Shown here: positions 35,818 to 52,084 of the stretch, in pieces | Position numbering within the stretch: position 1 is the first letter of the stretch | Layout of the letters: each line of letters begins with the position of its first letter | The notes under the pieces: generated by a model | Told to the model about the DNA's origin: nothing | Seen by the model: the letters and a program-made list of their open reading frames with translations, nothing else | The model's database searches: none | Position numbers and translations under genes: made by a program | Assembly (NCBI GenBank): GCA_013695765.1 | Contig: JACCZW010000070.1 | Coordinates: 1 to 52,744, forward strand | Origin: Gammaproteobacteria bacterium | GTDB taxonomy: Bacteria; Pseudomonadota; Gammaproteobacteria; JACCYU01 | Reading direction: 5' to 3' | Length of the DNA: 52,744 nt

Positions 35818-38361
35818 TTGGTTTCTTACTCTGACCATTTGCTGGCGCGGGCGAGCCTGCGTTATCTGCTCCGCTACCCCTGGCAGTTGGGGCTCACGGT
35901 CGCCGGCGTCGCGATCGGAGTGGCCGTGGTGGTCGCGGTGGACGGGGCGACCAGCGCCGCGGAGCGTTCTTTCCAGGATTCCATGGACGCGGTCTCGGGG
36001 CGCGCCACGCATCGCGTTGTCGGCGGCGCGCAGGGGCTTAATGAGGTGCTCTATCGAAAGCTACGTGTCGGGCTGGTAATGCGGCACAGCGCGCCGGTGC
36101 TGGAGGGGTTCGTCAAGGTGCGCGGCGAAACCCTGCGGCTGCTCGGTGTCGATCCTATCGCGGAGGCGCCGATCCGCGATTACGCTGCGTTCGGTGGCGA
36201 TATCCCGGTCGACCGACTGATCACGGAACCCGGCGCGGTATTGCTGGCACGCGCGACCGGCACGCGTCTGGATTTAGCGCTTGGCGACCGATTCAACGTC
36301 ACAGTCAGCGGCCGGATGCGATCGGTTCACCTGCTCGCTCACCTGGCGTCTGCCGGCCAGCCGCGGGCGGCGATCGACGGCCTGATGATCGCGGATATCG
36401 CCACGGCGCAGACGCTGTTGAACCGGTTCGGGCGCCTGAGCGGTATCGACTTGAAGCTGCCGGCGGGCTTGCAGGGCGAGCGACTGCGGACGCGAATCGC
36501 TGCGTTGCTGCCGGCGGATGCCCGCATCGAACCCGCCGCGGCGCGCAGCCAGGCCATGGCGCAGATGACGCACGCGTTCGCTACCAATCTGACCGCGATG
36601 GGTCTGCTGGCGCTGCTGATCGGCATGTTCCTCATCTACAGCACCATGAGCCTCTCGGTATTGCGGCGCCGCAGCCTGATCGCGAACCTGCGGATGCTGG
36701 GTGCTAATCGGATACAGATCTTCCGTCTGGTGCTGATGGAGGCGCTTGGATTGAGTCTGCTGGCGTTGGCGATCGGATTGCCGGGCGGCGCGGTGCTGGC
36801 GCAGGGACTGCTGGCGCTGGTCACCCGCACGATCAACGATCTGTACTTTACGCTCAGCGTCAATATCTGGGCGGTCGATGCGGCCACCTTGACGAAGGGT
36901 GCGGCGCTTGGCATCGGCGCCAGTCTATTGGCTGCGCTGGGGCCGGCGGTGGAAGCGGCGCGCGCCACACCGCTGGAGGCGCGCACCCGCTCACACCTGG
37001 AACGCGGTGCGCGACGGCTGGTCGCGTGGCTGGCACCGGCTGGTGTGGCGGTCATGCTCGCGGGCGCCCTGCTGTTGACCGCGGGTCAATCGCTGTGGCT
37101 GGGTTTTGTTGCGCTGTTGCTGATCAGCGCGGGCTATGCGCTGATCACGCCGGCGGCCGTGGCGATCATGATGAAACTGGCGCAAGCGCCGCTTGCTTCA
37201 TGGTTCGGATTGCCGGGCCGCCTCGCCGCGCGTGGGGCACAGGCCAGTCTAAGCCGCACTGCCGTCGCGATCGCGGCGCTGGTCGTGTCCGTGGCGGCGA
37301 CCGCTGGCGTGACAATCATGATCGACAGCTTTCGCGGCTCGGTCGCGGCCTGGCTGGGCTCGACCCTGCGCGCCGATATTTATGTGACCACACCCGCATC
37401 TGACGTGGAGGGCGCAGAGTCAATTCTGTCGCCGACACTCGTGCGGCGAATCGAAAACGTACAAGGCGTTGCGGACGCCGAGGCGCACCGCTGGGTCACG
37501 GTGCAGGCGCGCACTCATGAGGTACGCTTGCACGTGATTGAAACATCGCCATCCGCGCGACTGGGCTTTCTAATCAAGGCCGGCGATCCACAAGCCGCAC
37601 GGCGTGCGTTCAGGCGCGGAACGGCGGTGCTCGCGTCCGAGCCTTATGCATACAAACATCAACGGATTCCCGGCGATTCCATCGTGTTGCGCACCGATCA
37701 TGGCGAGCGTCGCTTCAGGATTGCGGGCACGTTCTACGATTACGGCTCCGATCAAGGTGTGGTGGCGATGCCGCGCGCGCTGTACACGCGCTGGTGGCGG
37801 GACCGTAATATCTCCTCGCTCGGTGTGCGCTTAAGTCAGAGGGTGCCCGCGCGTCAGGTGCAGGCGCAGTTGCGGGCTGCGGTCCACGGCTCGCAACCTG
37901 TATTGATCCGCGACACCGGCGAGCTGCGCGCGCAGACGATGGCGATCTTCGACCGTACATTCGCGATCACGCAGGTGTTGCGATTGCTGACTGTGGTGGT
38001 CGCCGTGGTAGGTGTCTTAAGCGCCTTCATGGCGTTGTTATTGGAACGCGGCAAGGAGTTCGCGGTGCTGCGCGCGACCGGTTTTACACAAGGTCAGATC
38101 GTCGCGCTGATCACGGGCGAAGCCGGGTTACTGGGCCTGTGCACAGGCTTGCTGGCAATGCCGCTCGGGGTGGTCATGTCGGTGGTGTTGATCGAAGTCA
38201 TCAATCGGCGCTCGTTTGGCTGGAGCATGCCGGTCTCGATCGCGCCAGAGGCGCTATTTCACGCGCTGGCGCTGGCGCTCGCCGCGGCGCTGGCGGCCAG
38301 TATCTATCCTGGCTTCAAGGCGGCGACTTTGCGCCCTGCGGCAGGATTGCGGGCGGAATAA
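35818..38361 (+). CDS. Double FtsX-domain ABC permease
   Basis: An 847-residue inner-membrane protein with the duplicated FtsX layout. An N-terminal helix (LGLTVAGVAIGVAVVVAV) is followed by a periplasmic MacB-like domain (about 40-250) and three helices (about 260-385), then a second set: two central helices near 410-460, another helix-periplasmic domain unit (about 485-720) and three final helices (about 725-840). It resembles the AttG/YbbP type rather than LolC/E. The start is probably TTG at 35818; no ATG precedes conserved sequence. The stop touches the next ATG (TAAATG), so the lipocalin-like gene is co-translated. Function inferred: extraction or release of an envelope substrate. Confidence 0.85.
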   Translation: MVSYSDHLLARASLRYLLRYPWQLGLTVAGVAIGVAVVVAVDGATSAAERSFQDSMDAVSGRATHRVVGGAQGLNEVLYRKLRVGLVMRHSAPVLEGFVKVRGETLRLLGVDPIAEAPIRDYAAFGGDIPVDRLITEPGAVLLARATGTRLDLALGDRFNVTVSGRMRSVHLLAHLASAGQPRAAIDGLMIADIATAQTLLNRFGRLSGIDLKLPAGLQGERLRTRIAALLPADARIEPAAARSQAMAQMTHAFATNLTAMGLLALLIGMFLIYSTMSLSVLRRRSLIANLRMLGANRIQIFRLVLMEALGLSLLALAIGLPGGAVLAQGLLALVTRTINDLYFTLSVNIWAVDAATLTKGAALGIGASLLAALGPAVEAARATPLEARTRSHLERGARRLVAWLAPAGVAVMLAGALLLTAGQSLWLGFVALLLISAGYALITPAAVAIMMKLAQAPLASWFGLPGRLAARGAQASLSRTAVAIAALVVSVAATAGVTIMIDSFRGSVAAWLGSTLRADIYVTTPASDVEGAESILSPTLVRRIENVQGVADAEAHRWVTVQARTHEVRLHVIETSPSARLGFLIKAGDPQAARRAFRRGTAVLASEPYAYKHQRIPGDSIVLRTDHGERRFRIAGTFYDYGSDQGVVAMPRALYTRWWRDRNISSLGVRLSQRVPARQVQAQLRAAVHGSQPVLIRDTGELRAQTMAIFDRTFAITQVLRLLTVVVAVVGVLSAFMALLLERGKEFAVLRATGFTQGQIVALITGEAGLLGLCTGLLAMPLGVVMSVVLIEVINRRSFGWSMPVSIAPEALFHALALALAAALAASIYPGFKAATLRPAAGLRAE

Positions 38362-39504
38362 ATGTCGCCGGCCCGGCTAATTATCTTAATTGTCATTATC
38401 CTGGCGACGCTGATATTTGGCGCTCGCTTTATGCGGGATGACACCACGAAGCTCGTGAGCGAAAACAATCTTGCCGGCGCACTCGGCAACGGCGCGGGCT
38501 ATGCGCAGGCTGATCGGCTGCGTCGCTTCCAGTTTCCGGCCGACTTCGGCCCGCATCCGGATTTCCGCCACGAGTGGTGGTATTTCACCGGCAATCTGAA
38601 GGCCGCCGATGATCGACGTTTCGGTTATGAGCTGACCTTGTTCCGTATTGCACTAATCCCCTCACCCACACCGGGCAAGTCGGCGTGGCGCACCAACCAG
38701 TTGTATACCGCGCATCTGGCAGTAACGGACCGGCAAGGGCAGCGGTTTGAATTTTTCGAGCGTTTCAGCCGCGGCGCGCTGGGTCTGGCGGGCGCGCGGG
38801 CCGCGCCGTTTCGAGTATGGCTGGAGGACTGGCAGGTTGCGGCGCGCAAGGGCGGCGGTTTTCCGTGGCGGCTGGAAGCCAGCGCCGGTAATTTGCGACT
38901 GGCGCTGATGCTGTCGCCACAAAAGCCGTTGGTGTTGCAGGGCGATCACGGTCTGGACCGCAAGAGCGCGCAAGGGCATGCGTCCTACTATTACTCGTTC
39001 ACGCGGCTGACAACCGCCGGCACGCTCACCCTGGGTGATGAAATCATTGACCTTAACGGCTTGTCGTGGCTCGATAGGGAATGGAGCAGCGGCTCGCTTG
39101 CGGACGATCAGCAGGGCTGGGACTGGTTCGCGCTGCAATTGGACGACGGCGCCGACATGATGTTTTATCGCCTGCGCCAGGCGTACGATGCGACCGATCC
39201 CAACAGCGGCGGCGTCTGGGTTGGCGCGGGCGGCAACAGCGTTACGCTGGCTGCAAGCGACGTTCGCATCGAGACGCTGGCGCACTGGGCCAGTCCGCGT
39301 GGCGGTCGATACCCGGCGCGCTGGCGGCTGCTCATACCCACGCGCGACTGCCGTTTGACCGTCACTCCCATCATGGCCGACCAGGAACTGGACGTGCTGG
39401 TGCGCTATTGGGAAGGCGCGGTCGATGTCACGGGCGCGTGCGGCACTCAACGGGTCAGCGGCATGGGTTACGTCGAGTTGACAGGCTATGCAGAGGAAAT
39501 GTGA
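38362..39504 (+). CDS. AttH/CrtC-like lipocalin-fold protein
   Basis: A 380-residue protein with an N-terminal membrane anchor or signal (LIILIVIILATLIFGARFM) and the AttH/hydroxyneurosporene-hydratase-like double lipocalin fold. This is marked by FRHEWWYFTGNLKA near residue 70, YYYSFTRLTTAGTL near 213, NGLSWLDREWSSG near 235 and WDWFALQLDDGADMMFYRLR near 253. In Agrobacterium the attH gene lies with ABC genes attEFG, the same trio as here. The molecular role of these non-carotenoid members is not settled; lipid binding or a hydrolase/hydratase reaction are possible. It directly abuts the permease. Confidence 0.82.
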   Translation: MSPARLIILIVIILATLIFGARFMRDDTTKLVSENNLAGALGNGAGYAQADRLRRFQFPADFGPHPDFRHEWWYFTGNLKAADDRRFGYELTLFRIALIPSPTPGKSAWRTNQLYTAHLAVTDRQGQRFEFFERFSRGALGLAGARAAPFRVWLEDWQVAARKGGGFPWRLEASAGNLRLALMLSPQKPLVLQGDHGLDRKSAQGHASYYYSFTRLTTAGTLTLGDEIIDLNGLSWLDREWSSGSLADDQQGWDWFALQLDDGADMMFYRLRQAYDATDPNSGGVWVGAGGNSVTLAASDVRIETLAHWASPRGGRYPARWRLLIPTRDCRLTVTPIMADQELDVLVRYWEGAVDVTGACGTQRVSGMGYVELTGYAEEM

Positions 39505-39640
39505 AGAATTTCCTGTGGTGGCGCGCAAACCGGGCGTTTTCCCGGTAGGCTCTGGTGCATTATGCTGATTTCTGAAGAAGTTAATTTTGTGAATCGCGCA
39601 GTGCCAACGTTCCGTATCTCGATATACCGATAACCCGCCA

Positions 39641-40693
39641 ATGAGCCTCGCTGTTGCTCGCATAATCGTGCCTATTGACGTTGCGCGGCCGTTTACGCGC
39701 CGTCTTTTCGAGACGGTCCTCGTCCTTCTAATTCTGTTGATCGTTTGCGGCGCGGCGCGAGCCGAGGAACTCGAGCCGGTGCGGGTAGGTGTGCTGCAAT
39801 TCGGCACGGTATCGTGGGAACTGGATGTCGTGGCGCATCATGGGCTCGCCGAGCGCGAGGGCGTGGACATGGAAATCGTACCGCTCAGTTCCACCAGTGC
39901 ATTGAACGTCGCGCTGCAAAGCGGTGATATCGACATGGTTGTGGGCGACTGGATCTGGGTGTCCCGACAGCGTGCCGCCAACCGGAACTTTACCGCGGTG
40001 CCTTATTCGCTCACGGAGGGGTCGTTGCTGGTGCGGCCCGACTCTGGCATCAATTCCCTCGAAGATTTGGCTGGCAAAAGGCTAGGCGTGGCCGGCGGGC
40101 CGGTCGATAAAAGCTGGTTGCTGTTGCGCGCCTACGCACGTCAAACACTTAACGAAGACCTGTCAGACATCGTGGAGCCCACTTATGCCGCGCCGCCGCT
40201 GCTGAACGTGCTGGCGCTACGGGGCATTTTGCCGGCGGTGATTAACTATTGGCATTACGCGGCGCGTCTTGAAGCCGCCGGCATGAAGCCGCTGATTGGT
40301 ATCGATGAGGCGTTAGCCGAGCTGGGGGTTGAAGAACCGGTACCGCTGCTGGTGTGGGTGTTCAGCGAACACTGGGCGGCGGACAATCCGACTCTGGCGC
40401 ATGGGTTTTTGCGCGCGACCTACGCCGCCAAGCGTATTCTGGCTGAGTCGGAGCAGGAATGGGAGCGGATCGCACCGCTCACCCAGGCGCAGGACGAAGC
40501 GACATTGCAGGCGTTACGCAAGGCTTACCGCCAGGGCATTCCGCGACAGTTTGGCGAGGCTCAAGTCGAGGCCGCGAAGCAGGTATTCGCGATACTGGCG
40601 CGCGAGGGTGGCAGGCAGCTTGTGGGGTCCAGCACGTCGTTAAGTCCCGGAACTTTCTGGAACGGTTTCAAGATCGGGTCGCCCGCGCAGTGA
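39641..40693 (+). CDS. Periplasmic substrate-binding protein (SsuA/NMT1-like) of a PQQ-linked ABC system
   Basis: A 350-residue binding protein. A signal peptide (VLVLLILLIVCGAARA, cleaved near residue 41) is followed by RVGVLQFGTVSWELDVVAHHGLAEREGV and ALQSGDIDMVVGDWIWVSRQR, the pattern of the SsuA/ThiY/NMT1 family, which binds sulfonates, pyrimidines and similar small molecules. The ligand is unknown. It is followed by an ATPase and an ABC-2 permease and then, on the opposite strand, by pqqE, an arrangement found around PQQ-dependent alcohol oxidation systems. I infer a role in that pathway. Confidence 0.78.
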   Translation: MSLAVARIIVPIDVARPFTRRLFETVLVLLILLIVCGAARAEELEPVRVGVLQFGTVSWELDVVAHHGLAEREGVDMEIVPLSSTSALNVALQSGDIDMVVGDWIWVSRQRAANRNFTAVPYSLTEGSLLVRPDSGINSLEDLAGKRLGVAGGPVDKSWLLLRAYARQTLNEDLSDIVEPTYAAPPLLNVLALRGILPAVINYWHYAARLEAAGMKPLIGIDEALAELGVEEPVPLLVWVFSEHWAADNPTLAHGFLRATYAAKRILAESEQEWERIAPLTQAQDEATLQALRKAYRQGIPRQFGEAQVEAAKQVFAILAREGGRQLVGSSTSLSPGTFWNGFKIGSPAQ

Positions 40694-40730
40694 TCGCCGC
40701 GCAGGGCGACGTGATCGATAGGAGCAGCGT

Positions 40731-41513
40731 GTGAACGATGTCGGCGCGGCGGTAGCCTCGACGCGGCTGCAGGACAAGGTGCTGAACGTCGTGTCCGCCA
40801 GCAAATCCTACGGTGCCCGCAAGGCGCTGGAGAACGTCAGTCTACACGTGGACACGGGCGAATTCGTCGCGCTGCTGGGTCCGAACGGCGCGGGTAAGAC
40901 CACCCTGTTCCAGCTATTGACCGGACTCTTTGTCGCGGACACCGGCGACATAAATATTCGCGGCCATGACATCCGGCGCAAACCCATTGCCGCGCTGGCC
41001 GGCATCGGCGTGGTGTTCCAACAGTCCACCCTCGACATGGACCTGACGGTACGCGCCAATCTGCTGTTTCACTGCCGGCTGCATGGTATGAACAGGGAGC
41101 GCGCCCGCACGCGTATCGAGGAAGAGTTGCAACGTCTCGGACTCAGAGACCGGGCGGAGGAACCCTGCCGGGCATTGAGCGGCGGCAATCGCCGTAAGAT
41201 CGAGCTCGCACGCGCGCTGCTGCACGACCCCAGGGTGCTGATGATGGACGAAGCGACGGTCGGTCTCGATCCCGCTTCGCGCACCTCGCTGATCAGCTAT
41301 GTCCATGAACTCTGCGCCGCGCGCGGCGTGGCTGTGTTATGGGCCACGCACCTGGTGGACGAGGCGGAACAGGCGGACAGGGTGCTGGTGCTGCATCAGG
41401 GGCGGCTGCTGGCCGCAAAGACGCCGACGGAGTTGCTGCGCGACACGCGCGCCGGCAGCTTGTCGCAGGCTTTCCTGAGCATGACGGGCGTTAATCCAGA
41501 GAAAGAGTGGTGA
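40731..41513 (+). CDS. ABC transporter ATPase, PQQ-associated type
   Basis: A 260-residue ATPase with Walker A GPNGAGKTTLFQLL, VVFQQSTLDMDLTV at the Q-loop, signature LSGGNRRKIELARALL, Walker B VLMMDEATVGLDP and H-loop WATHLVDEAEQ. The variant signature SGGNRRK and DEATVGLD resemble the ATPase family found in PQQ-dependent alcohol dehydrogenase gene clusters (TIGR03864-like). It starts with GTG after TAGGAGCAG at good spacing and lies 37 bases behind the binding protein. The permease follows after 123 bases. Confidence 0.88.
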   Translation: MNDVGAAVASTRLQDKVLNVVSASKSYGARKALENVSLHVDTGEFVALLGPNGAGKTTLFQLLTGLFVADTGDINIRGHDIRRKPIAALAGIGVVFQQSTLDMDLTVRANLLFHCRLHGMNRERARTRIEEELQRLGLRDRAEEPCRALSGGNRRKIELARALLHDPRVLMMDEATVGLDPASRTSLISYVHELCAARGVAVLWATHLVDEAEQADRVLVLHQGRLLAAKTPTELLRDTRAGSLSQAFLSMTGVNPEKEW

Positions 41514-41636
41514 GCGCTAGCATGCGTTGCGAGAATGGATGCCGAACATGCGTTTAAAACGGTTCATCAAGCGCGAGCGATATTGCGTAGTATGTTTCGG
41601 GGTTGCCGCCAGCGCAGATGTTAACGGATCGCACTC

Positions 41637-42446
41637 ATGACGCCCACGCACGCGTTGCACGCCATGCAGGCGCTCGGCAGCCGCGAGGTCATCAAATTCT
41701 GGCATCAGAAAGGGCGTCTGTTTTCCGCACTGGTGCGTCCAGCGTTATGGCTGATCGTCTTCGGTGCGGGCTTTCAAAGTGTTTCTGGCGTGCCCGTCGT
41801 TCCGCCTTACGACACGTACGTCGAGTACCAGGTCTACATCGCGCCCGGTCTGCTGGGGATGGTGCTGCTGTTCAACAGTATGCAGTCTTCGCTGTCGATG
41901 GTTTACGACCGTGAGATGGGCTTGATGCGGTTGCTGCTGACGGCGCCGCTGCCCCGCTGGTATCTGTTGCTGTGCAAGCTTATGGCCGGCACATTGCTTT
42001 CCGTATTGCAGGCGTATGCCTTTCTGCTGTTGTGCGTGCTGTTCGACGTGGACATGCCGCTGATCGGCTGGCTTTACGCATTGCCGGCTCTTGTTCTGGG
42101 CGGCATGATGCTGGGGTCTCTAGGGTTGCTGCTGTCGGTGCACATCAAGCAACTCGAGAATTTCGCGGGCACCATGAACTTCGTTATTTTCCCGATGTTT
42201 TTTATTTCTTCGGCGCTTTATCCTTTGTCGAAGTTGGCAGCGTCCGGCGCCGAGATCATTTATACGCTCGCGCGGTTCAATCCCTTCACCCACACCATCG
42301 AGCTGATCCGCTTCGCGCTTTACGGCCAGCTCAACGCGATCAGTCTGGCCGTGGTTGTGGGCAGCGGAATCGTATTTTTCGTGCTCGCGGTATATGGCTA
42401 CGACCCGCAGCGTGGCATGGCGAGTCGAGCGCCGAATCCCGCCTGA
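41637..42446 (+). CDS. ABC-2 type permease (PedC-like)
   Basis: A 269-residue inner-membrane protein with six predicted helices in the ABC-2 arrangement. VRPALWLIVFGAGFQSV begins the first, with the conserved SSLSMVYDREMGLMRLLLTAPLPRWYLL and FVIFPMFFISSALYPLSKL. It resembles the permease of PQQ/alcohol ABC systems (TIGR03861-like). ABC-2 permeases normally export, whereas the binding protein two genes upstream suggests uptake or sensing. The mixture seems to be a feature of these clusters. Confidence 0.85.
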   Translation: MTPTHALHAMQALGSREVIKFWHQKGRLFSALVRPALWLIVFGAGFQSVSGVPVVPPYDTYVEYQVYIAPGLLGMVLLFNSMQSSLSMVYDREMGLMRLLLTAPLPRWYLLLCKLMAGTLLSVLQAYAFLLLCVLFDVDMPLIGWLYALPALVLGGMMLGSLGLLLSVHIKQLENFAGTMNFVIFPMFFISSALYPLSKLAASGAEIIYTLARFNPFTHTIELIRFALYGQLNAISLAVVVGSGIVFFVLAVYGYDPQRGMASRAPNPA

Positions 42447-42484
42447 ACGGGCGGATACGTTCAGTATTCCGTGGACTCGCTTTT

Positions 42485-43441
42485 GTGTCAGCTCAGTATA
42501 TTTACCCTGCAATAGAGCCATACGCTTCGGGGATGCTCGATGTGGAGCCGCCGCATCGGCTTTACTTCGAACAGTGCGGGAATCCCGACGGCATTCCCGT
42601 GGTGTTTCTGCATGGCGGGCCGGGCTCCGGATGCGCGCCCGGTCATCGGCGCTTCTTTAACCCGGCCGCTTACCGAATCGTGCTGATGGATCAGCGCGGT
42701 GCCGGCCGATCGCAGCCCGTCGGTTGCCTGGAGAAAAACAATACGCAGGCATTGCTCGCGGATTTGGAGCAATTGAGGTCACACCTCGATATCGAACAGT
42801 GGTTGCTGTATGGCGGCTCATGGGGCGCTACCCTGGCGCTGCTTTATCTGAGGCTTTGGCCGCGCCGGGTTTCAGCGCTGGTGCTGCGCGGGGCGTTTCT
42901 CGGGCGATTGCGCGATCTGGCGTGGTTTTACAGTGCGGATGGCGTCGGACGCTTATTTCCACAAGACTACGATTCGTTCATCAAGCATCTTCCTGAGCGC
43001 GCTGAGCCGGTATCCGCGTACCATCGCTTGCTGCACGCGCCTGAGATTAGTGTGCGAATGGACGCCGCGCGTCGCTGGAACGCCTGGGAAACTCGGGTGG
43101 TCATGCAATTTCTGCCGGCGGGGAACCAGGGCGGCAGCATGCAATCGGATGAAATCCTGCGCCGCGCGACGATCGTCAATCACTACGCCCATCATGAGTT
43201 CTTTTTGGGCGGCGAGGGCGTGCCGCTGGATTTCGAAGTTTTAAACGGCAAACCATGCACGATCGTTCATGGCCAGCGCGATCTCGTATGTCCTCTGGAA
43301 TCCGCATGGACGGCGCATTGCGCGTTGCCGGGATCGGAGTTACGCGTTGTGGAAACGGGTGGGCATGTCGCGAATGACCCCGCGATCGGTAAAGTGCTGG
43401 TTGAGGTATTCGATCAGATGGCGGCGCGCTTCGCTGGTTGA
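42485..43441 (+). CDS. pip: Prolyl aminopeptidase (S33 family)
   Basis: A 318-residue cytosolic alpha/beta-hydrolase peptidase that removes N-terminal proline. It starts YIYPAIEPYASGMLDV and HRLYFEQCGNPDG, as the family does, and has VVFLHGGPGSGC (oxyanion region), DQRGAGRS, the nucleophile elbow YGGSWGATLAL, the acid strand VHGQRDLVCP and the late histidine in ETGGHV. The start was set at GTG 42485, two codons before the homologous N-terminus; the open frame runs on upstream only because it shadows the permease. It converges on pqqE with a 21-base gap. A link with maturation of the PqqA peptide is possible but speculative. Confidence 0.9.
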   Translation: MSAQYIYPAIEPYASGMLDVEPPHRLYFEQCGNPDGIPVVFLHGGPGSGCAPGHRRFFNPAAYRIVLMDQRGAGRSQPVGCLEKNNTQALLADLEQLRSHLDIEQWLLYGGSWGATLALLYLRLWPRRVSALVLRGAFLGRLRDLAWFYSADGVGRLFPQDYDSFIKHLPERAEPVSAYHRLLHAPEISVRMDAARRWNAWETRVVMQFLPAGNQGGSMQSDEILRRATIVNHYAHHEFFLGGEGVPLDFEVLNGKPCTIVHGQRDLVCPLESAWTAHCALPGSELRVVETGGHVANDPAIGKVLVEVFDQMAARFAG

Positions 43442-43462
43442 AAGGGTCACGCGAGCTGCTCG

Positions 43463-44629
43463 CTAGCTTAGGTGTTCCGGTGTCGCCCGCTGCTCCGCGG
43501 TAAGCCGTTTGGAGTTGCGCGGATTCCTGAATATCAACGGCTTGGGATCGCCTTGCGCCTCGGGGCTGTTAGCGTGCACGACGGCATTCAGTATCACGTC
43601 GTGATGCGGTGACTTGCCGCATACCGGATCGGTATTCGCCGCATCGCCTGTGAGCATATAGGCCTGACAGCGGCAGCCGCCGAGATCCCGGGTCTTTTCC
43701 GGACAGCTACGGCACGGTTCCTTCATCCAGTCGAAGCCACGAAACTGATTGAATGTCGGCGAGTCGCGCCAGATCCATTCGACACTCGAATCGCGTACAT
43801 TGGGAAGCTCCAGTCCCGGCAATTGTCGCGCCGCGTGGCAGGGCAGGGCGGTGCCATCCGGCGTGATGGTGAGAAATACATTTCCCCAGCCGTTCATGCA
43901 GGCTTTTGGACGGTCCTCGTAGTAATCCGGGATGATGTAGTAAATCTTCATCCGTTGCTTGAGGCGCTCGCGGTATTCGTTGGCGACGACTTCCGCGTTT
44001 TGCAGTTGCTCGCGCGTCGGCAGTAGCTGTTCGCGGTTATGCAACGCCCAGCCGTAATATTGCGTATTCGCTAGCTCGACATAATCAGCATCCAGGGTAA
44101 TCGCCATCTCCAGAATCTGGTCCAACTGCTCGATGTTGTGGCGATGTAGTACCACGTTAAGCACCATGGGATAATCATGACGCTTGACTGCACGCGCCAT
44201 TTCGAGCTTGCGCTCGAACGAGTGGGTGCCGCCCAGAAAATCGTTGAGTTCCTGCGAACTTGCCTGAAAGCTGATCTGGATGTGGTCAAGGCCGGCGCGC
44301 CGAAACGTTTCGACTCGCTCCTCATCCATGCCGATACCCGACGTAATCAGGTTCGAATAGAATCCAAGCTGGCGGCCCTCGGCGATAATTACTTCAAGAT
44401 CGCGCCGTAACAACGGTTCCCCACCGGATAGACCCAGCTGTGTCGCGCCCATGGCGCGCGCCTCGCGCAAGACCTTCAGCCACGTCTCGGTATCAAGCTC
44501 CTTGCCTTGGCGCGCCATGTCGAGCGGGTTACTGCAGTAAGGACATTGAAGTGGGCAGGCATAAGTGAGTTCGGCCAACAGCCACAATGGCATCCCCGGC
44601 TTGGGATCGTGCGCGGAAACCTCATTCAC
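43463..44629 (-). CDS. pqqE: PqqA peptide cyclase (radical SAM)
   Basis: A 388-residue radical S-adenosylmethionine enzyme that joins the Glu and Tyr side chains of PqqA by a carbon-carbon bond, the first step of pyrroloquinoline quinone synthesis. The radical-SAM cluster motif is CPLQCPYC in [19 protein letters not shown], followed by LSGGEPLLR. The C-terminal SPASM region binds further clusters ([29 protein letters not shown]). GTG at 44629 was preferred to GTG at 44686 because AAGGAG lies eight bases before it and the length then matches the family. It is 297 bases downstream of pqqA on the same strand, with hairpins between. PqqD, which PqqE needs, is neither fused nor adjacent. Confidence 0.95.
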
Positions 44630-44763
44630 GGCATCTTCTCCTTGTTGCTCTGGCACCTCAATCACATTGGCGGCTGGCCAGGACACTTATCGTTACCAGG
44701 GCAAATCTAATTGTTGGATCGGTGCGGCGGGAAGAGAGGATTGAGATCGAGCTTAAACGTGAT

Positions 44764-44783
44764 TACCTGCGCCGCGGCAGGTA
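44764..44783 (-). repeat. Second hairpin between pqqA and pqqE
   Basis: TACCTGC and GCAGGTA form a 7-bp stem with a six-base GC loop in the untranslated stretch between pqqA and pqqE. It lacks a T tract, so it may protect or slow the transcript rather than end it. Confidence 0.35.
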
Positions 44784-44890
44784 GGTGCTATAAGCCTGTT
44801 ACATCCTAACTTTGAGACGCTTCAGGACTGATGCGTACGCTTTGCGTTCTGGCTGGCGTTGCGGGTGTCGATCCCGCTGGGCCAAAACAG

Positions 44891-44916
44891 AACCGGGGAC
44901 TTTGTAGTCCCCGGTT
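44891..44916 (-). terminator. Strong hairpin just downstream of pqqA (attenuator or terminator)
   Basis: A perfect 10-bp stem AACCGGGGAC / GTCCCCGGTT with a six-base loop lies 10 bases after the pqqA stop on the minus strand and is followed by TCTGTTTTGG. In many species pqqA is made in large excess over the other pqq genes because of such a partial terminator. The tail is only weakly T-rich, so read-through into pqqE is likely. Confidence 0.6.
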
Positions 44917-44926
44917 ACCGGAGGAA

Positions 44927-45001
44927 TTACCGGTTGTTGATGTACATCGTGATTTCAAAACCAAAACGTACGTCGCTGTATTCTGGGGTTGTCCACTTCA
45001 T
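44927..45001 (-). CDS. pqqA: PQQ precursor peptide PqqA
   Basis: A 24-residue ribosomal peptide that donates all carbons and nitrogens of the cofactor pyrroloquinoline quinone. Reading the minus strand from ATG (44999-45001) gives MKWTTPEYSDVRFGFEITMY and then INNR, closely matching known PqqA peptides. Glu16 and Tyr20, the two residues cross-linked by PqqE and turned into PQQ, are in the exact ExxxY spacing. GGAG lies eight bases upstream. It is too short for ordinary gene calling. A hairpin follows the stop, and a sigma-54 promoter candidate lies about 110 bases upstream. Confidence 0.96.
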   Translation of the reverse strand: MKWTTPEYSDVRFGFEITMYINNR

Positions 45002-45110
45002 GAGTTTATCTCCGTTTGGGTTGAAGTTAAGAGCCAGTAATTATTGCCTAATGTTACGTCTTACATAATGCGAGTTGAGTGTTGCTACAACTTCACTATG
45101 TCATTAATAC

Positions 45111-45127
45111 GAGCAGATTGCGTGCCA
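45111..45127 (-). promoter_or_regulatory. Sigma-54 (-24/-12) promoter of pqqA
   Basis: Read on the minus strand, TGGCACG-CAAT-CTGCT matches the RpoN consensus TGGCACG-N4-TTGCW at every defined base except one (C for the first T of TTGC), with the exact GG-to-GC spacing. Transcription would start near 45101, giving pqqA a leader of about 100 bases. An IHF site and paired half-sites lie upstream, and a sigma-54 activator is encoded next door. Confidence 0.72.
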
Positions 45128-45156
45128 GACATGCTAAGTGGATGACGTGGAATGAA

Positions 45157-45169
45157 CAAGGTTTTGATT
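45157..45169 (-). promoter_or_regulatory. Consensus IHF-binding site upstream of the pqqA promoter
   Basis: On the minus strand AATCAAAACCTTG fits the IHF consensus WATCAANNNNTTR at every defined position. It lies 30-42 bases upstream of the -24 element, the usual place for IHF-assisted looping at sigma-54 promoters. Confidence 0.6.
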
Positions 45170-45234
45170 AATAGACTTTTTTCGGAATTACGGTGCATCT
45201 CGTAACTTACGGAGGCGGGTTCTATTCTGAAAGC

Positions 45235-45268
45235 AACCACAGGTTATCGGTTGATATAAACCACCTGT
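45235..45268. promoter_or_regulatory. Candidate activator-binding sites (AACC/GGTT half-site cluster)
   Basis: Four half-sites occur within 28 bases: AACC (45235), GGTT (45242), GGTT (45249) and AACC (45259). The last pair forms the near-palindrome GGTTGATATAAACC, and ACAGGT / ACCTGT (45239-45268) encloses the set. They lie about 110-140 bases upstream of the pqqA -24 element and 170-200 bases before the kinase gene, typical of enhancer sites for NtrC-type activators. Confidence 0.45.
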
Positions 45269-45438
45269 ATGATTGAAAACAACCATTCCGGGCCGCGCTT
45301 CGGCGCCTAACCGCGTTGGGTAGGCGAGCATCGCGCTCACAAGGGTGCGGTCGATCGATACCCGCTATGAGTATACTGCCCTTTATGCCAGAGCTTGTGC
45401 GCTTGAGATGCGACCGCGGATCACGGCTTCATTAGTTA

Positions 45439-46893
45439 ATGACCCGCACCCGCTCGCTAAAGAAACTGCTGTTCGTTTACCAGACGAGCTTTCTGCTGCT
45501 GGTGATCATCACCGGCGCGATCGGAGGCTTGTGGGCATATTTCTGGCAGCAGACCTCGCACGAATCGGTGCGGATCAACGCCTTGCTGATCGAGGCGCAA
45601 CTGGTGCGCGGGGATTTGTACCGGCAACTCAAGGAAATCACCCGTTCCGGTGCGGGCGGTGATCCCAACGCGCTGGATCAATACTGGCATCGTCTGTATC
45701 TCATCGACAAGCATTTCTATGCATTGCAACAACACGCGAAGACTGCCGCCGAGACGCGCGCCATCGAATCCATGCAGCAGTCATATAATCTGATGCAGGC
45801 GGAGATGAATCAGTTTCTGGCCTCTCCGGTCAACGAGGCAGCGCGCATCAAGCTCCTGGACCCGGCCTACGATCGCATGATGCTGGGCGATTTCGAAGAC
45901 GCTTTTCTGGAATTCTCAAAACTCATAGCGCAGCAACGCCGGGCGCTGGAGCAGACGATTGAATACTGGACGCGGCTGGCGCCCATTCTTATTCCCGCGC
46001 CCATCCTGCTGGCGGCGGCATTGCTGTTTTTTTCGCACCGCAGCTTCCGGCGCGGGTTCCTGGCGCCTATGGCCGAAGTAGTGTCTGGCGCCAAGCGAAT
46101 CAGCGAGGGCCGGCTCGATCATCGCATTCCGACCAGCGGTGTGGAAGAAGTTACCGTGCTGGCGCGTTCGATCAATGACATGGCGAGCGAGCTCGCGGCG
46201 AGCCGTGATGCGCTCGTGGAAAGCGAAAAACAGGCCGCGCTGGGCGCGCTAGTGCCGGTGGTAGCGCACAACATCCGCAATCCACTGGCCTGCATTCGCG
46301 CGACCGCGCAAGTGATGGATGACGCGGAGGACTTGCGGGAGTCGCGGCAGGAGATCATCGACACGGTGGATCGACTGGAACGCTGGATCAAATCGCTGCT
46401 GTCCTATCTGCATCCATTAAAACCGCACAAGACGCGCACCACGCTCGCCGCCGTGGCAGAGGGCGCGCTGGCGCCGCTCAAACCCAAGCTTGAGGCGAAA
46501 AGGCTCAGCATCAGGCGGTCAGCGTGGCAGCCTGATCAGGCGCTTTATGCGGATACCGATCTGCTGGAACAGGCGATTCACGGGCTGGTCAATAATGCCG
46601 CCGAAGCATCACCGCCGGGCGCGCAGATCGGGCTTGGGATTGAGTCGTCGGCAGATGAGATCACGTTGATCATCGACGACCAGGGGCCGGGCATGCCGAT
46701 GAACCCTGATCCTAAAGGGCTGGCGCCGGTACCATCGACCAAACGCTTCGGCACTGGGCTCGGCATTCCGTTCGCGTTCAAGGTGAGTCAGGCGCACGGC
46801 GGCAGGATTGTGTTTGAGCCGGCGCCCGGCGGCGGTACGCGCGTGCGATTGTCGCTGCCCATGCAGGCATCCATCGAGACCGAATCCGTATGA
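45439..46893 (+). CDS. Sensor histidine kinase partner of the sigma-54 activator
   Basis: A 484-residue inner-membrane kinase. Helix 1 (about 10-33) and helix 2 (about 181-198) enclose a periplasmic, largely helical sensing domain of about 147 residues. HAMP follows (about 203-255), then a HisKA domain with H277 in VAHNIRNPLACIRATA (NtrB/ZraS-like H box) and the ATPase domain with QAIHGLVNNAAEASPPG, IIDDQGPGMP and FGTGLGIPFAFKVSQAHGG. Its stop overlaps the regulator ATG (ATGA), so the pair is one two-component system. It is divergent from pqqA across the sigma-54 control region. The signal is unknown; an alcohol or other periplasmic cue related to PQQ enzymes is a reasonable guess. Confidence 0.92.
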   Translation: MTRTRSLKKLLFVYQTSFLLLVIITGAIGGLWAYFWQQTSHESVRINALLIEAQLVRGDLYRQLKEITRSGAGGDPNALDQYWHRLYLIDKHFYALQQHAKTAAETRAIESMQQSYNLMQAEMNQFLASPVNEAARIKLLDPAYDRMMLGDFEDAFLEFSKLIAQQRRALEQTIEYWTRLAPILIPAPILLAAALLFFSHRSFRRGFLAPMAEVVSGAKRISEGRLDHRIPTSGVEEVTVLARSINDMASELAASRDALVESEKQAALGALVPVVAHNIRNPLACIRATAQVMDDAEDLRESRQEIIDTVDRLERWIKSLLSYLHPLKPHKTRTTLAAVAEGALAPLKPKLEAKRLSIRRSAWQPDQALYADTDLLEQAIHGLVNNAAEASPPGAQIGLGIESSADEITLIIDDQGPGMPMNPDPKGLAPVPSTKRFGTGLGIPFAFKVSQAHGGRIVFEPAPGGGTRVRLSLPMQASIETESV

Positions 46894-48335
46894 CCAGCGA
46901 CGAAACAATGCCAGCGTCTGGATCCTCCACGGCCAGTGCGGCAACGGACGTCTACATTCTCATTGTGGAGGACGAGGCGGTGCTGGCCAAGGCCATTGCC
47001 AAGCGCTTTCGAAAAGAGGGCTATGTGAGTGATGTCGCCGGCACACTCGCGGCCGCGCGTGAGCAGATTGCACGGGCCACACCCGACTTGATACTGCTGG
47101 ACATGCGCCTGCCGGATGGCTCCGGGTTGGATTTTCTGGAGCAGTTGCGCGAACGCGATAGCGCGGATATCCCGGTGGTGGTGATGACGGCGTATGGCGA
47201 GTTGGAAGACGCCGTCGCGGCATTAAAACTCAAAGCGCTGGATTATCTGAAAAAGCCGGTGGATCTGGACGAACTGCTGTTGATCGTCGAGAAAGTGTTC
47301 AGGCAGGTGGCGGTGCGGCGCAGCCTGGATTACTCGCGGCAACGCGACGGGCGAGGGCTGGACTCCGCGACCTTGCTTGGCGAAAGCGACGCAATTGTAC
47401 AATTGCGCAAACAGATTCAGCGCATCGGCGCGATCACCGCCAATGCCAGCGCGTCACCGCCTACCGTTCTCATCCTGGGCGAAACCGGCTGCGGCAAAGA
47501 CCTGGCGGCCAAGCTGCTGCACCTGGCAAGCAGCCGCCGTGAGCGTCCGTTTGTGCACGTGGATTGCGCGGCGCTGCCGAAAGATCTCATCGAAGCGGAG
47601 CTGTTCGGTCACGAGAAGGGCGCCTACACCGGCGCCCACACCGCGCGCACTGGTTTGGTCGTCGCCGCCGAGGATGGGACGGTATTTTTGAACGAGATCG
47701 CCGAACTGCCGCTGGAGCTGCAATCCAAGTTGCTGACGGTGCTCGAACGCCGCACGGTCAGGCAGGTGGGCAGCAGCCGTGAACGGAGGGTGCCGGCATG
47801 GTTCATTGCCGCCACGAATCGCAACCTGGAGGAAATGGTCAAACAGGAGCGTTTTCGCTCCGATTTGTTCTACCGGCTGAAGGTTTTGACCCTGACCATG
47901 CCGCCGCTGCGGGAACGGGGCGACGATGTAATCCTGCTCGCGCGTCATTTCGCGAAACAGACCGCGCAGCGTTACGGTCTGCCGCAGCCGGAACTCGCCC
48001 AGGTTCTAATCGCGGCGCTGCGCGGCTATGCGTGGCCCGGCAATGTGCGGGAGCTACAGCATCTGGTCGAGCGCGCGGTATTATTAAGCGACGGCCGGCG
48101 CCTGACCCGCGCGGCCATGAGCCTGGAGAGCAGCGCCGCGGACGATCGTGAGCAGCCCGAGACCGCCGAGGCGCTTAAGGACATGACTCTGGAAGCAGCC
48201 GAATATCAGCTAATCAGACACGCGCTGGATCGCGCGGACGGCAACGTGTCGGAGGCCGCGCGGCGCCTCGGCGTGACCCGCATGGCGCTGCGGTATCGTA
48301 TGCAGAAGTACGACATCCCCACGGATCGCGCGTAG
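46890..48335 (+). CDS. Sigma-54-dependent response regulator (NtrC family)
   Basis: A 481-residue activator. The receiver domain (about 22-135) has acidic residues in IVEDEA, phospho-acceptor D71 (LLDMRLPDGSG) and K121. The AAA+ domain (about 162-395) has Walker A GETGCGKD (197-204), the sigma-54 contact loop GAYTGA (244-249, a tolerated variant of GAFTGA), Walker B-like VFLNEI with Asn in place of the usual Asp, and FRSDLFYRL. The Fis-type helix-turn-helix is at about 453-476 (NVSEAARRLGVTRMALRYRM). It overlaps its kinase gene. The nearest sigma-54 promoter is that of pqqA, so it is the likely activator. A decayed copy of its C-terminus lies at 49621-49695. Confidence 0.92.
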   Translation: MTSDETMPASGSSTASAATDVYILIVEDEAVLAKAIAKRFRKEGYVSDVAGTLAAAREQIARATPDLILLDMRLPDGSGLDFLEQLRERDSADIPVVVMTAYGELEDAVAALKLKALDYLKKPVDLDELLLIVEKVFRQVAVRRSLDYSRQRDGRGLDSATLLGESDAIVQLRKQIQRIGAITANASASPPTVLILGETGCGKDLAAKLLHLASSRRERPFVHVDCAALPKDLIEAELFGHEKGAYTGAHTARTGLVVAAEDGTVFLNEIAELPLELQSKLLTVLERRTVRQVGSSRERRVPAWFIAATNRNLEEMVKQERFRSDLFYRLKVLTLTMPPLRERGDDVILLARHFAKQTAQRYGLPQPELAQVLIAALRGYAWPGNVRELQHLVERAVLLSDGRRLTRAAMSLESSAADDREQPETAEALKDMTLEAAEYQLIRHALDRADGNVSEAARRLGVTRMALRYRMQKYDIPTDRA

Positions 48336-48362
48336 GACGTTGGCCGGGAGTCGAGCTCACGA

Positions 48363-49481
48363 TCACTCGACTGACGGCGTTTCTTGCGCAAGCGCGACAT
48401 CTTTCAGCGCGTCGTCCGGCAGTACGTAGGAAAGCGAGAGCTTTTCGTCCTGCCATTCCAGCAGCTCGGGGAACCGCATGTCGGTCAACACCTGCACGGC
48501 GAAGATCTCCTGTACGCCAGAATCGAAACGCAGAAAACCGACCGTCTCGCCCGTCTCGAGGTGGACGACCCAGACGCCGCAGGTGCGCTCATCAAGCCTG
48601 TCAACCAGTGGAAAGTCGCTGAAGACGGCTTTTTCGCGCACCTGTGAAAGTCCGATAAAGGCCAGCGGCCCATAGAAATCGATCCCGCGCGTGAAGCCGG
48701 GCAACTGCGCGACGGTGCGCCAGTTCTGCGATTCAAAGTCAACGATCGCCACACTGCCCTGACCGGATTCAAGCACCCACAGCTTGCCCTGATACCACCG
48801 CGGCGAATGCGGCATGGACAAACCACGCAGCAGAATCTCGTTTTTCACTACATCAATAAGTATTCCGCCGCTGACCTTGTTCGCGCGCCAGCCGCCTTGC
48901 GTATCGGTCTCGCCAAGTGCTGTGACATACTTTGGGCGACCGTCCACCATCGCCAGTCCGTTCAAATGACACCGATCTTCGGGCGACAGCGCGCTTAAAA
49001 ACTTTGGCCGCCAGCGTGGATAAAAGCTGTGATCGCCATCCAAGGTGCACAGACAGCCAAAGCGCGTGTTGACGATCCACAGTTCGTTGTCGCGATCGTA
49101 GGCCATCTCGTGGATGTCGATGTCGCCGGTGACGTGGATGCGGCGCGGAAGATAACAGGCATCGTGCTTGCCGGCGGGTTCCAGCTTGGGCGCGACCGCG
49201 GGTACGTTGCGGTAATACCAGACGGTGTTGGTGCCGCCGATGGTCAGACGCGCAGCGTCGGCCGCGATGCCCATCGGCCGCATGAACGAACGAAAGTGCG
49301 TATTCAGCGCGCCGCCATCGGCACGCACGAGAATGACCTTGCCGGCCTGATACGTCGATACGACCAGACTGATCCCCAATCGCTCGAAGAGCCCGGGCAG
49401 ATTGCTCGTGTGCACGCTCGTCAGAGGTTCGCTATCTATCTCGGACGCATGATCCGCGGGCTGGTGAGAATTTTTGTCCAT
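48363..49481 (-). CDS. TIGR03032 / DUF4915-type protein of unknown function
   Basis: A 372-residue protein without signal peptide or membrane segment. LVVSTYQAGKVILV near residue 38, RPMGIAADAARLTIGG near 67, HDACYLPRRIHVTGDIDIHEM near 105, and VNTRFGCLCTLD with FYPRWRPKFLSAL near 140 match the TIGR03032 family. It looks like a beta-propeller (repeated strands with GLSMPHSPRWYQGKLWVLESG and GFTRGIDFYGPLAFIGLS). No reaction is known. Convergent with the response regulator after 27 bases. A start ATG at 49479 is preceded by AACGAGCGTCACG, only a weak ribosome site. Confidence 0.85.
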   Translation of the reverse strand: MDKNSHQPADHASEIDSEPLTSVHTSNLPGLFERLGISLVVSTYQAGKVILVRADGGALNTHFRSFMRPMGIAADAARLTIGGTNTVWYYRNVPAVAPKLEPAGKHDACYLPRRIHVTGDIDIHEMAYDRDNELWIVNTRFGCLCTLDGDHSFYPRWRPKFLSALSPEDRCHLNGLAMVDGRPKYVTALGETDTQGGWRANKVSGGILIDVVKNEILLRGLSMPHSPRWYQGKLWVLESGQGSVAIVDFESQNWRTVAQLPGFTRGIDFYGPLAFIGLSQVREKAVFSDFPLVDRLDERTCGVWVVHLETGETVGFLRFDSGVQEIFAVQVLTDMRFPELLEWQDEKLSLSYVLPDDALKDVALAQETPSVE

Positions 49482-49620
49482 CGTGACGCTCGTTTGCCTC
49501 GGCCTAGCTGTTTGCGGAGCGTAATTTCTTAAACGCGGTTGAAGCCGCCGGCTACAACGCCCCTTGACTATTCATGAAATTGCCAAAAAGGTAAAGGAAG
49601 TACTACGCCGCCAACCACGA

Positions 49621-49695
49621 AGTGTGCGCCTGCGCGTAACGCGCGTGCCGCGGCGTTATCGCATGCGGAAGTACGACATCCCGACGGACCGCTGA
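49621..49695 (+). pseudogene. Decayed C-terminus of an NtrC-family regulator
   Basis: This stretch encodes VTRVPRRYRMRKYDIPTDR and a stop. The intact regulator's last residues are VTRMALRYRMQKYDIPTDR then Ala and a stop. The DNA is also clearly related over about 60 bases (GTACGACATCCC is identical). The upstream sequence no longer matches the rest of the regulator, so only the end of the Fis helix-turn-helix survives. The frame runs open back to a TTG at 49564, but nothing supports a functional small protein. Confidence 0.7.
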
Positions 49696-49789
49696 CGCTT
49701 CGCGCCTTAGGGCGGATTACGTCCGTGTAATGCGCCCACTTGGCAACGATAGTCTATGTCGATCGGTGCAATGAGTACTCTGAATCGCG

Positions 49790-50554
49790 CTAGGGCGCGA
49801 CCTCGTTATAGCTGGACGCTGCGTCGCCCACCTTAACCTCATCATAATAGATCGTTCGTTTATTGGCGTCAGTCGCGCCCGAGCGGCTCTTCCACCCCGG
49901 GATGTAAATGCCGACTTTCATGTAAGGGCCGAGCGCGTCGTTGTAGCAGTTAGGTCCCTGGTAGTTAACGATCATGCTGCCGTTCTTCCATATCTCGAGC
50001 AGTCCGTCGCTTTGAAAAGAAAAATCGACATGGATCACCCAATCGGTATATTGACCGTTGTTTAGACTGCCCGCGCTGAAGATCTGGCGACCCTCGGTCG
50101 AAGCAGTGGTCATGGCGTTCGCATCGTAGTTAACATGGATATTGTAGCCGCTCGAGTTGGCTCTCAGGAGTAACGGCTGTCTGCCGCCCTGATCCCCGGC
50201 ATCGGGGCGCTTGTGTAGCTGCATGGTGAAAAAACCGGCGTCCCCTGCACTCGGTATCTGGTTGCTGAAACCGATCCAGTATTCCTTGCCGATGTCGAAA
50301 CTTGGCCGTTGCAGACGAAGCTCGGTGCGCCACGGGACTCTGTCCATTAGCCGGTCGAGTTTAAGCTCCGCCGCATAGTTGCCGCTCCGGATCGGCGAGT
50401 TGACGATCGTTGCGGTGTTATTGCCGGACGGTCGCCAGCCGGAAAAAGACTGTTCGTCGAATTTGTCGCTGAAAAGAATTTCGGCATTTGCCGAAGAGGC
50501 CAGACTCAACGCGCTGGCGAGTAATATTAAGAACTGAGTTTTAATTGGAATCAC
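49790..50554 (-). CDS. Secreted heparin-lyase-like polysaccharide lyase
   Basis: A 254-residue protein with signal peptide MIPIKTQFLILLASALSLAS ending near SANA, so it is exported. The mature part resembles the heparin lyase I-like (polysaccharide lyase, jelly-roll) fold: FSDKFDEQSFSGW, ELKLDRLMDRVPWRTELRLQ, YWIGFSNQIP, FFTMQLHKRPDAG, NGQYTDWVIHVDFSF, LEIWKNGSMIVNYQGPNCYND, and a final TIYYDEVKVGD. The substrate could be a uronic-acid polymer such as glucuronan or alginate. The start was placed at GTG 50554 so that the signal peptide is N-terminal; the longer frame to 50716 has no support. No sugar-use genes are nearby. Confidence 0.75.
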   Translation of the reverse strand: MIPIKTQFLILLASALSLASSANAEILFSDKFDEQSFSGWRPSGNNTATIVNSPIRSGNYAAELKLDRLMDRVPWRTELRLQRPSFDIGKEYWIGFSNQIPSAGDAGFFTMQLHKRPDAGDQGGRQPLLLRANSSGYNIHVNYDANAMTTASTEGRQIFSAGSLNNGQYTDWVIHVDFSFQSDGLLEIWKNGSMIVNYQGPNCYNDALGPYMKVGIYIPGWKSRSGATDANKRTIYYDEVKVGDAASSYNEVAP

Positions 50555-51237
50555 CCCAACAATGTAGCTCACCGAGAAAGCGCCACTAAGCGTAGCTGGC
50601 ACTGATGAAGACCGCGTGTTCCGGCAAGTCCTTATGCTTTCATCCGTATCGGCAATACGCCCAGCAGTTACCGTGGCGCGGGCAACACGCCACCGTGCCC
50701 GAAGTTCAGGCATCAAAACTAAGCCCAGCTTGATGTGCCGACCCTACTGCGGATGTTATTGATGGGTTCCCGTTATGTCGGGATAACGCAGGTCGCTGCG
50801 GAAATTACCATGCTTTGTTTACGGTTGCATGACTAATCTCCCTGTGCGCGGATTCCGTGCCTTGAAGACCCTCTCGCTCAATGCCGAGAGGACGATATCG
50901 GACTGGATGCTCTCGCGTTCCCTACGTCGACTTCTATCATGCTCTCTCCCACAGATCCGTCGCCTCGTTCTCACACGAGAGAGCTTACGCCCCACGAACG
51001 TGTCGATTGCTTACGGATACGAACATTCGCCGGTGAGAATCGACCTTTGCCGCACAGCAGCGATTGAAGGCCTGAATACCTTTGCGAAAGCTGGTAACGC
51101 CTAGGGCGGTTTTGTCTTTCTTTCCGACATCGTCTCGGTCGCCAGCGAGTCTTTGACCACAGCCGGCGCTGTGACAACGAGGCTGCCGCCGTATGTTACG
51201 ATTCGGCATGACCACCCCATCGCTTGAGGAGATCGAC
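50555..51237. other. Intergenic stretch without a recognised gene
   Basis: I see no reliable gene in these 683 bases. An open frame of 91 codons at 50829-51104 has no recognisable motif and low-quality composition. CTCTCG / CGAGAG (50871-50890) is a minor inverted repeat. The final part leads into the Uma2 gene. Confidence 0.5.
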
Positions 51238-51810
51238 ATGGCCTGGGTCAACACGTCGCCGCTGGTCAAGACCTACACCCTCGATGAATTCTGGCGGCTG
51301 CCCGAGCCGCCGGACCGATCCAAGCTTGAACTTATTGCGGGAGTCCTCTACGTGACGCCGCCGCCTGATTGGCCGCACGACAGACTGGTCGCACGCCTTA
51401 ATGAATTGCTTTCCGCTCACCTGCGTACAAACGGCATTCAAGGAACGCTATACGTCCCCCGCGCCGCCATCTGGACGGGCCCCGGCACCTATCTCGAGCC
51501 TGACCTGTTCTACGTCTCGGCTGAACTGGAAGCGCGGCTCGATCCAGGTCATCGCACTACGGCCGATCTGGTGATCGAAGTCGTATCGCCTGGATCGGCG
51601 ATTTATGACCGCAATGCCAAAGCCGACACTTACGCCGCGCTCGGCGTTAAGGAAATGTGGCTGGTAGAGGAGTCTCAGAAGCGGGTAGAGGTGCGCAACC
51701 AAACCGGCAACAGTTTCGGCGAGCGTCGCGTGTTTACCGCTGACGAGCGCATCGTCTGCGCTGTGCTACCGAATGTGAACATTCTTCCCGCGCAACTGTT
51801 CAGCGATTGA
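51238..51810 (+). CDS. Uma2-family (DUF820) protein, second copy
   Basis: A 190-residue Uma2/DUF820 protein, a diverged relative of the one at 8388-8957. The core is TYTLDEFWRLPEPPDRSKLELIAG near residue 13, YLEPDLFYVS near 85, DLVIEVVSPGSAIYDRNAKADTYAALG near 114 (E-x-V and the D-x-x-x-K segment of the active site) and VKEMWLVEES near 141. The ATG at 51238 was chosen over 51193 because GAGGAG stands at ideal spacing before it. No antitoxin or partner gene is evident, so its cellular task remains unknown. Confidence 0.83.
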   Translation: MAWVNTSPLVKTYTLDEFWRLPEPPDRSKLELIAGVLYVTPPPDWPHDRLVARLNELLSAHLRTNGIQGTLYVPRAAIWTGPGTYLEPDLFYVSAELEARLDPGHRTTADLVIEVVSPGSAIYDRNAKADTYAALGVKEMWLVEESQKRVEVRNQTGNSFGERRVFTADERIVCAVLPNVNILPAQLFSD

Positions 51811-52084
51811 AGGGCGGTCGGCGGGATGACGACTTACGCCTGCGCGAGTTGCTCACACCGGCCAGCGACCGCTTCCATTGCCGCTGCATCGCGCGGCGCG
51901 CTGGGCGGGGTAGTATCGACAACTTGCGGTATTGCGCCGCGAAGCGCGGCGACAGCTCGCGTTCCTGATGTAACAGCCGTTGTTTGATGTCCGGGCCATT
52001 CGCCGCCGTGGTTACTTCCTCGCGCCACACCGACAGGACGCGGTCGAAGTGAATGTTGTTGCCAGTTTTTCGTTGCGTTTGCAT
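51800..52084 (-). CDS. Hypothetical protein, possibly the truncated start of a surface protein
   Basis: A 94-residue open frame with MQTQRKTGNNIHFDRVLSVW, EEVTTAANGPDIKQRLLHQE and SPRFAAQYRKL, then RRAMQRQWKRSLAGV. The charged leader ending in KRSLAG resembles the N-terminus of large exported surface proteins, where a hydrophobic signal core follows. Here the hydrophobic core is missing and the frame ends in a basic, low-complexity tail (SRRRKSSSRRPPFNR), overlapping the Uma2 stop region by 11 bases. It could be a truncated remnant or a small intact protein. AGGGAAAAACCT precedes the ATG. The family resemblance is from memory and weak. Confidence 0.45.
   Translation of the reverse strand: MQTQRKTGNNIHFDRVLSVWREEVTTAANGPDIKQRLLHQERELSPRFAAQYRKLSILPRPARRAMQRQWKRSLAGVSNSRRRKSSSRRPPFNR

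Follow-up and report, generated by a model that had tools for sequence, protein, structure and literature searches.

Genomic islands that lie in the 3' ends of genes are bordered by attL and attR, and in such islands the end of the gene is restored on one side while the displaced end lies on the other. Displaced 3' ends with the geometry that we propose here have been described in the T6SS effector loci of Vibrio cholerae, where new modules have repeatedly replaced the effectors while the immunity genes were kept (PMC5361080). Homology-facilitated illegitimate recombination (PMC3240628) is predicted to leave a homologous border on one side and, on the other, an abrupt one with a short leftover. 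It has been reported in Streptococcus, Acinetobacter and Pseudomonas (as cited in PMC5361080). Our literature search returned no paper on TIGR03032 or DUF4915, and none on truncated-end duplications.

In the 52,744-nt stretch of gammaproteobacterial DNA analysed here (the window), the 3' end of a sigma-54-dependent response regulator gene is followed, beyond a TIGR03032 gene, by a second and partial copy of itself. We conclude that this remnant is very probably the original 3' end of the sole sigma-54 regulator, displaced by an insertion of ~1.3 kb that carried the TIGR03032 gene. As in attL/attR islands, a restored gene end would then adjoin the insert and a displaced end would mark its far border; unlike those islands, the insert has no integrase, measures only 1.3 kb, and is flanked by diverged repeats. 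It also differs from the V. cholerae T6SS loci in that the regulator is whole, one cargo gene appears to have been gained, and a single leftover tail is present. For comparison, 3 of 56 genomes gave matches, including that of the window itself (G000); the others were G001, of the same genus, and G002, of the same family and 78% complete. The features of the locus are listed in Table 1.

Table 1. Features around the regulator gene and its displaced tail (positions in the window)
Feature	Position	Strand	Basis
Sensor histidine kinase gene (HAMP, HisKA, HATPase_c), partner of the regulator	45439..46893	+	Pfam; 86% collinear with G001 over 10.1 kb
Sigma-54-dependent response regulator gene (receiver, Sigma54_activat, AAA lid, Fis-type HTH_8), functional copy	46890..48335	+	Pfam; comparison with G001
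Duplicated regulator tail, functional copy	48263..48329	+	Repeat search; 4 of 4 own changes at codon position 3
Insert, missing from the orthologous G001 site	48330..49625		Alignment to G001 contig C159; outer limits accurate to within a few tens of bases
TIGR03032/DUF4915 gene, 372 aa, intact, within the insert	48363..49481	-	TIGR03032, 421 bits (curated cut-off 251.5); DUF4915, 435 (cut-off 35), E = 1.8e-130
Stretch from the TIGR03032 start to the relic (52% G+C), holding the start of a 43-aa frame	49482..49625		G+C content; no match to the regulator
Relic: probable displaced, decaying native regulator tail (67 nt) with native TGA stop	49626..49695	+	55/67 against the functional tail; TGA and downstream flank as in G001
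Native intergenic spacer with hairpin sequence, conserved in G001	49696..49789		ORF coordinates; alignment; fold
Polysaccharide lyase gene (PF14099), which G001 and G002 also have as the native neighbour on the right	49790..50716	-	Pfam; ORFs

A repeat search returned one pair, 48263-48329 and 49626-49692, 67 nt long, 82% identical and spaced by 1363 nt. The first member consists of the 67 bases of regulator coding sequence that immediately precede the final codon, and 55 of the 67 are the same in the second, which keeps the orientation and reading frame of the functional tail. When the tail was searched against the whole genome by BLAST, the remnant was found at E = 7.1e-13, and the further matches were only 14-19 nt long, the best at E = 2.2. 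The best ungapped 67-nt match between 49564-49697 and the regulator gene scored 55/67, and none of 300 mononucleotide shuffles exceeded 38. These comparisons indicate that the remnant is homologous to the sigma-54 regulator tail beyond chance. The initial annotation had placed a duplicate of the activator's C-terminus at 49564-49697; the duplication is a real DNA repeat, and the assignment holds for about 49626-49692 together with the native stop and flank shared with G001, but not for 49564-49625. The latter, the first 62 bases of the interval, could not be matched convincingly to the regulator gene, and a repeat reaching upstream of 49626 was therefore rejected. The 144 nt at 49482-49625, upstream of the TIGR03032 gene, had no match in those loci of G001 and G002 that were used for comparison.

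The site without the insert is found in the relatives. Contig C159 of G001 aligns to window positions 38285-48329 (86%) and resumes at 49634-50791 (79%), with no gap on the G001 side; the alignment restarts inside the regulator tail and continues into the polysaccharide lyase gene. TIGR03032 is absent from this orthologous site, and the regulator end lies 95 nt from the lyase gene, compared with 94 nt from the TGA of the relic to the lyase gene in the window. In G002, regulator and lyase gene face each other at a distance of 596 nt with no TIGR03032 in between, and no match to TIGR03032 was obtained in that genome at its 78% completeness. A second regulator tail downstream in G002 was represented only by words of 10-16 nt (E = 0.14 or worse), and the idea that the regulator end is a repeated insertion site, with a second relic in G002, was rejected as these words are of chance length only. 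The G002 spacer (L008 1638-2235) holds a 93-aa reverse frame lacking a Pfam match, which suggests that the distance between regulator and lyase gene was altered in another way there. The simplest reading is thus that the window's side gained the stretch separating the tails. The polarity of this event would rest on G001 and G002, the sole other genomes of the family found; a scan of contigs for a close relative returned seven loci, all at 43-46% identity.

Right after the native regulator stop, at 49708-49739, the window has a hairpin-forming sequence (GGGCGGATTACG...GTAATGCGCCC) that is conserved in G001 and may represent either the native terminator or a degenerate copy from a repeat family; by consensus, no promoter or terminator was recognised in the region. 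A dispersed repeat of ~70-80 nt with inverted ends (~GGTGGATA...TATCCACC) occurs elsewhere, at L014 536-606 on contig C112 of G001. A query holding it gave 16 matches in the window's genome, nearly all at the repeat (for example on G000 contigs C76, C17, C56, C106 and C31), and within the window it had no match at a meaningful score.

The relic and the G001 tail agree against the functional tail at four sites, all at codon position 3, and in both of them a TGA stop directly follows the last arginine codon; the functional gene, by contrast, has one more codon and then TAG. Identities are 55/67 between relic and functional tail, 54/67 between relic and G001, and 56/67 between functional tail and G001; the corresponding third-position differences are 7/23, 5/23 and 8/23. 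Since the relic is not markedly closer to the functional tail than to that of G001, a recent copy made in place is unlikely. The divergence of the regulator from G001 does not rise towards the end of the gene, which counts against a foreign origin of the functional tail. Which of the two tails is the newcomer by descent is more than the few sites in 67 bases would settle. The remnant sits where the G001 tail sits, with the same TGA stop and a spacer of 94 as against 95 nt, and is better seen as the native tail of a single regulator, conserved in position and pushed 1.3 kb downstream, than as what is left of an extra gene.

The changes peculiar to each tail differ in kind. Five of the six found only in the relic alter codon position 1 or 2, whereas all four found only in the functional tail are at position 3, a contrast with a Fisher p of 0.048 on small numbers. 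The relic changes affect the TRM-A-L stretch of the HTH and its surroundings. Of 27 loci examined from relatives in the class, 25 have TRM there (L060 and L086 in this count are seemingly one contig); L061 reads SRG, and L087 ends at a contig edge. Along the whole regulator, differences from G001 by codon position number 42, 21 and 119 (480 codons), which points to purifying selection on the functional copy. The relic, on the other hand, has lost coding constraint and is decaying, and probably does nothing. The + strand frame at 49564-49695 encodes the 43-aa peptide VTRVPRRYRMRKYDIPTDR, for which NCBIfam, Pfam and PHROGs gave no family. As far as these data go, it does not appear to be a gene under selection: a functional small gene was rejected, given the lack of a family, the radical changes at HTH residues, and a G001 counterpart that is regulator tail only. 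If the five changes at 44 relic sites in codon positions 1 and 2 are compared with half the third-position divergence of the regulator (119/480), the insertion would date to about 0.9 of the age of the G000/G001 split. The interval is wide, ~0.3 to 1.9 (computed for 5/45), and allows no more than the conclusion that the insertion was not a recent one.

The initial annotation had offered a second regulator, since lost, as one source of the remnant. Two full tandem regulators would once have stood here, the second being deleted down to its last 67 bases, with TIGR03032 entering by the same or another event. The shared orientation and frame of the two tails would be expected from such a pair, and the 7 of 23 third positions that differ between them speak against a recent split. 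G001 and G002, however, have a single regulator ahead of the lyase gene, the relic has the native downstream flank and occupies the native tail position, and a search of 49482-49760 for more upstream parts of a second regulator recovered the tail alone. This history, which also needs two events where one suffices, did not hold up in the comparison, and we give it little chance. About as improbable, on balance, is an insert older than the split of G000 and G001 that G001 lost again through recombination between the tails. Such a loss would account for the G001 tail resembling the relic at four third positions and in the stop, but G002 has neither TIGR03032 nor a second tail, so that absence is the simpler ancestral state; the HTH of the G001 tail is moreover intact, so the loss would have to have come very early. 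That the locus is an assembly artefact, two strain variants having been wrongly joined, is very improbable. The genome is indeed in 164 contigs, but the two tails are only 82% identical and share no long word that would invite a false join, and the relic is changed at residues conserved in the regulators of relatives, unlike the tail of a working strain variant.

A further alternative concerns the mechanism alone and leaves the reading of a displaced tail unaffected: a small element may have integrated site-specifically into the 3' end of the gene, its own copy restoring that end, with its integrase lost or located elsewhere. The geometry fits, with an intact end by the insert, the native end at the far border, and imperfect direct repeats of 67 nt. 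But in the ~1.3-kb insert, for which TIGR03032 is the sole long gene, no integrase, recombinase or other mobility gene was detected with NCBIfam, Pfam and PHROGs; the site-specific recombinase that characterises an integrase-borne island is thus missing from what was detected, and the cargo is a single gene. Nor did the genome contain a second element with the same border, as judged from the other tail matches given above. To our knowledge, 67 nt at 82% identity is not a typical core for site-specific integration. At the borders of the insert, no convincing inverted repeats of transposon type were found, only short pairs, among them a weak one of 23 nt (74%). Altogether, we consider site-specific integration unlikely.

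Under our preferred reading of a displaced native tail, a ~1.3-kb segment with TIGR03032 would have entered exactly at the end of the regulator gene. On the near side, the regulator would have an intact tail, either retained or newly acquired, that ends in a new last codon and stop of its own; on the far side, the old tail would have stayed, followed by the native stop, the spacer and the lyase gene, and would have decayed unconstrained. As the likeliest mechanism, we tentatively infer homology-facilitated illegitimate recombination. The donor would have been DNA of a relative in which the regulator end and TIGR03032 lay side by side, with a homologous crossover within the regulator on one side and an illegitimate joining just inside the resident tail on the other, giving the order intact regulator, cargo, old tail. 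A donor of this type, with the regulator adjoining TIGR03032, was found nowhere in 369 genomes of the class apart from that of the window; kinase and TIGR03032 are both present in four of them (the window's included), and are neighbours only in the window. The proposal that TIGR03032 came by the same event as the duplication is supported by these results: the gene lies in the segment between the tails, and the uninterrupted G001 order, which represents the arrangement before insertion that the initial annotation had suggested looking for, is without that segment.

TIGR03032 is a single-copy gene in the window's genome and is patchy in the class, with matches in 22 of 369 genomes, 16 of them above the cut-off. 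G001 has it at two other places, on contigs C197 and C112. The C197 copy belongs to an open frame, 714 aa long or longer, with TPR-like sequence and stands beside beta-helix-like genes, these neighbours being described from sequence; the C112 copy stands beside a gene that we take to be argG, named from its sequence. In the window's genome, argG is present with no TIGR03032 adjoining it. Among the copies compared, that on C197 is closest to the window gene (tree support 0.88). The two differ at 181 of 369 third positions, as against 119 of 480, about half that rate, for the regulator, and so are not plain orthologues; for the window gene, paralogy or transfer is likelier than a recent move of the same gene. 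In the window, the start of a frame at 51800-52084 resembles the N-terminus of a beta-helix-like repeat protein beside the G001 lyase locus (L011 52-1278), and also the beta-helix-like proteins adjoining TIGR03032 on C197. From the placement of the window copy at the regulator end and of the G001 copies by argG and the beta-helix genes, one might speculate, with little probability, that TIGR03032 genes travel in the genus as single-gene cargo to sites beside conserved genes; if so, a specific, undescribed process of mobilisation could operate.

In summary, the locus is an ordinary insertion scar of the kind that routine genome evolution leaves. For annotators, it is a warning that the 43-aa frame should not be taken for a gene, and for TIGR03032/DUF4915, it would provide a clean record of an uncharacterised gene gained beside a two-component system.
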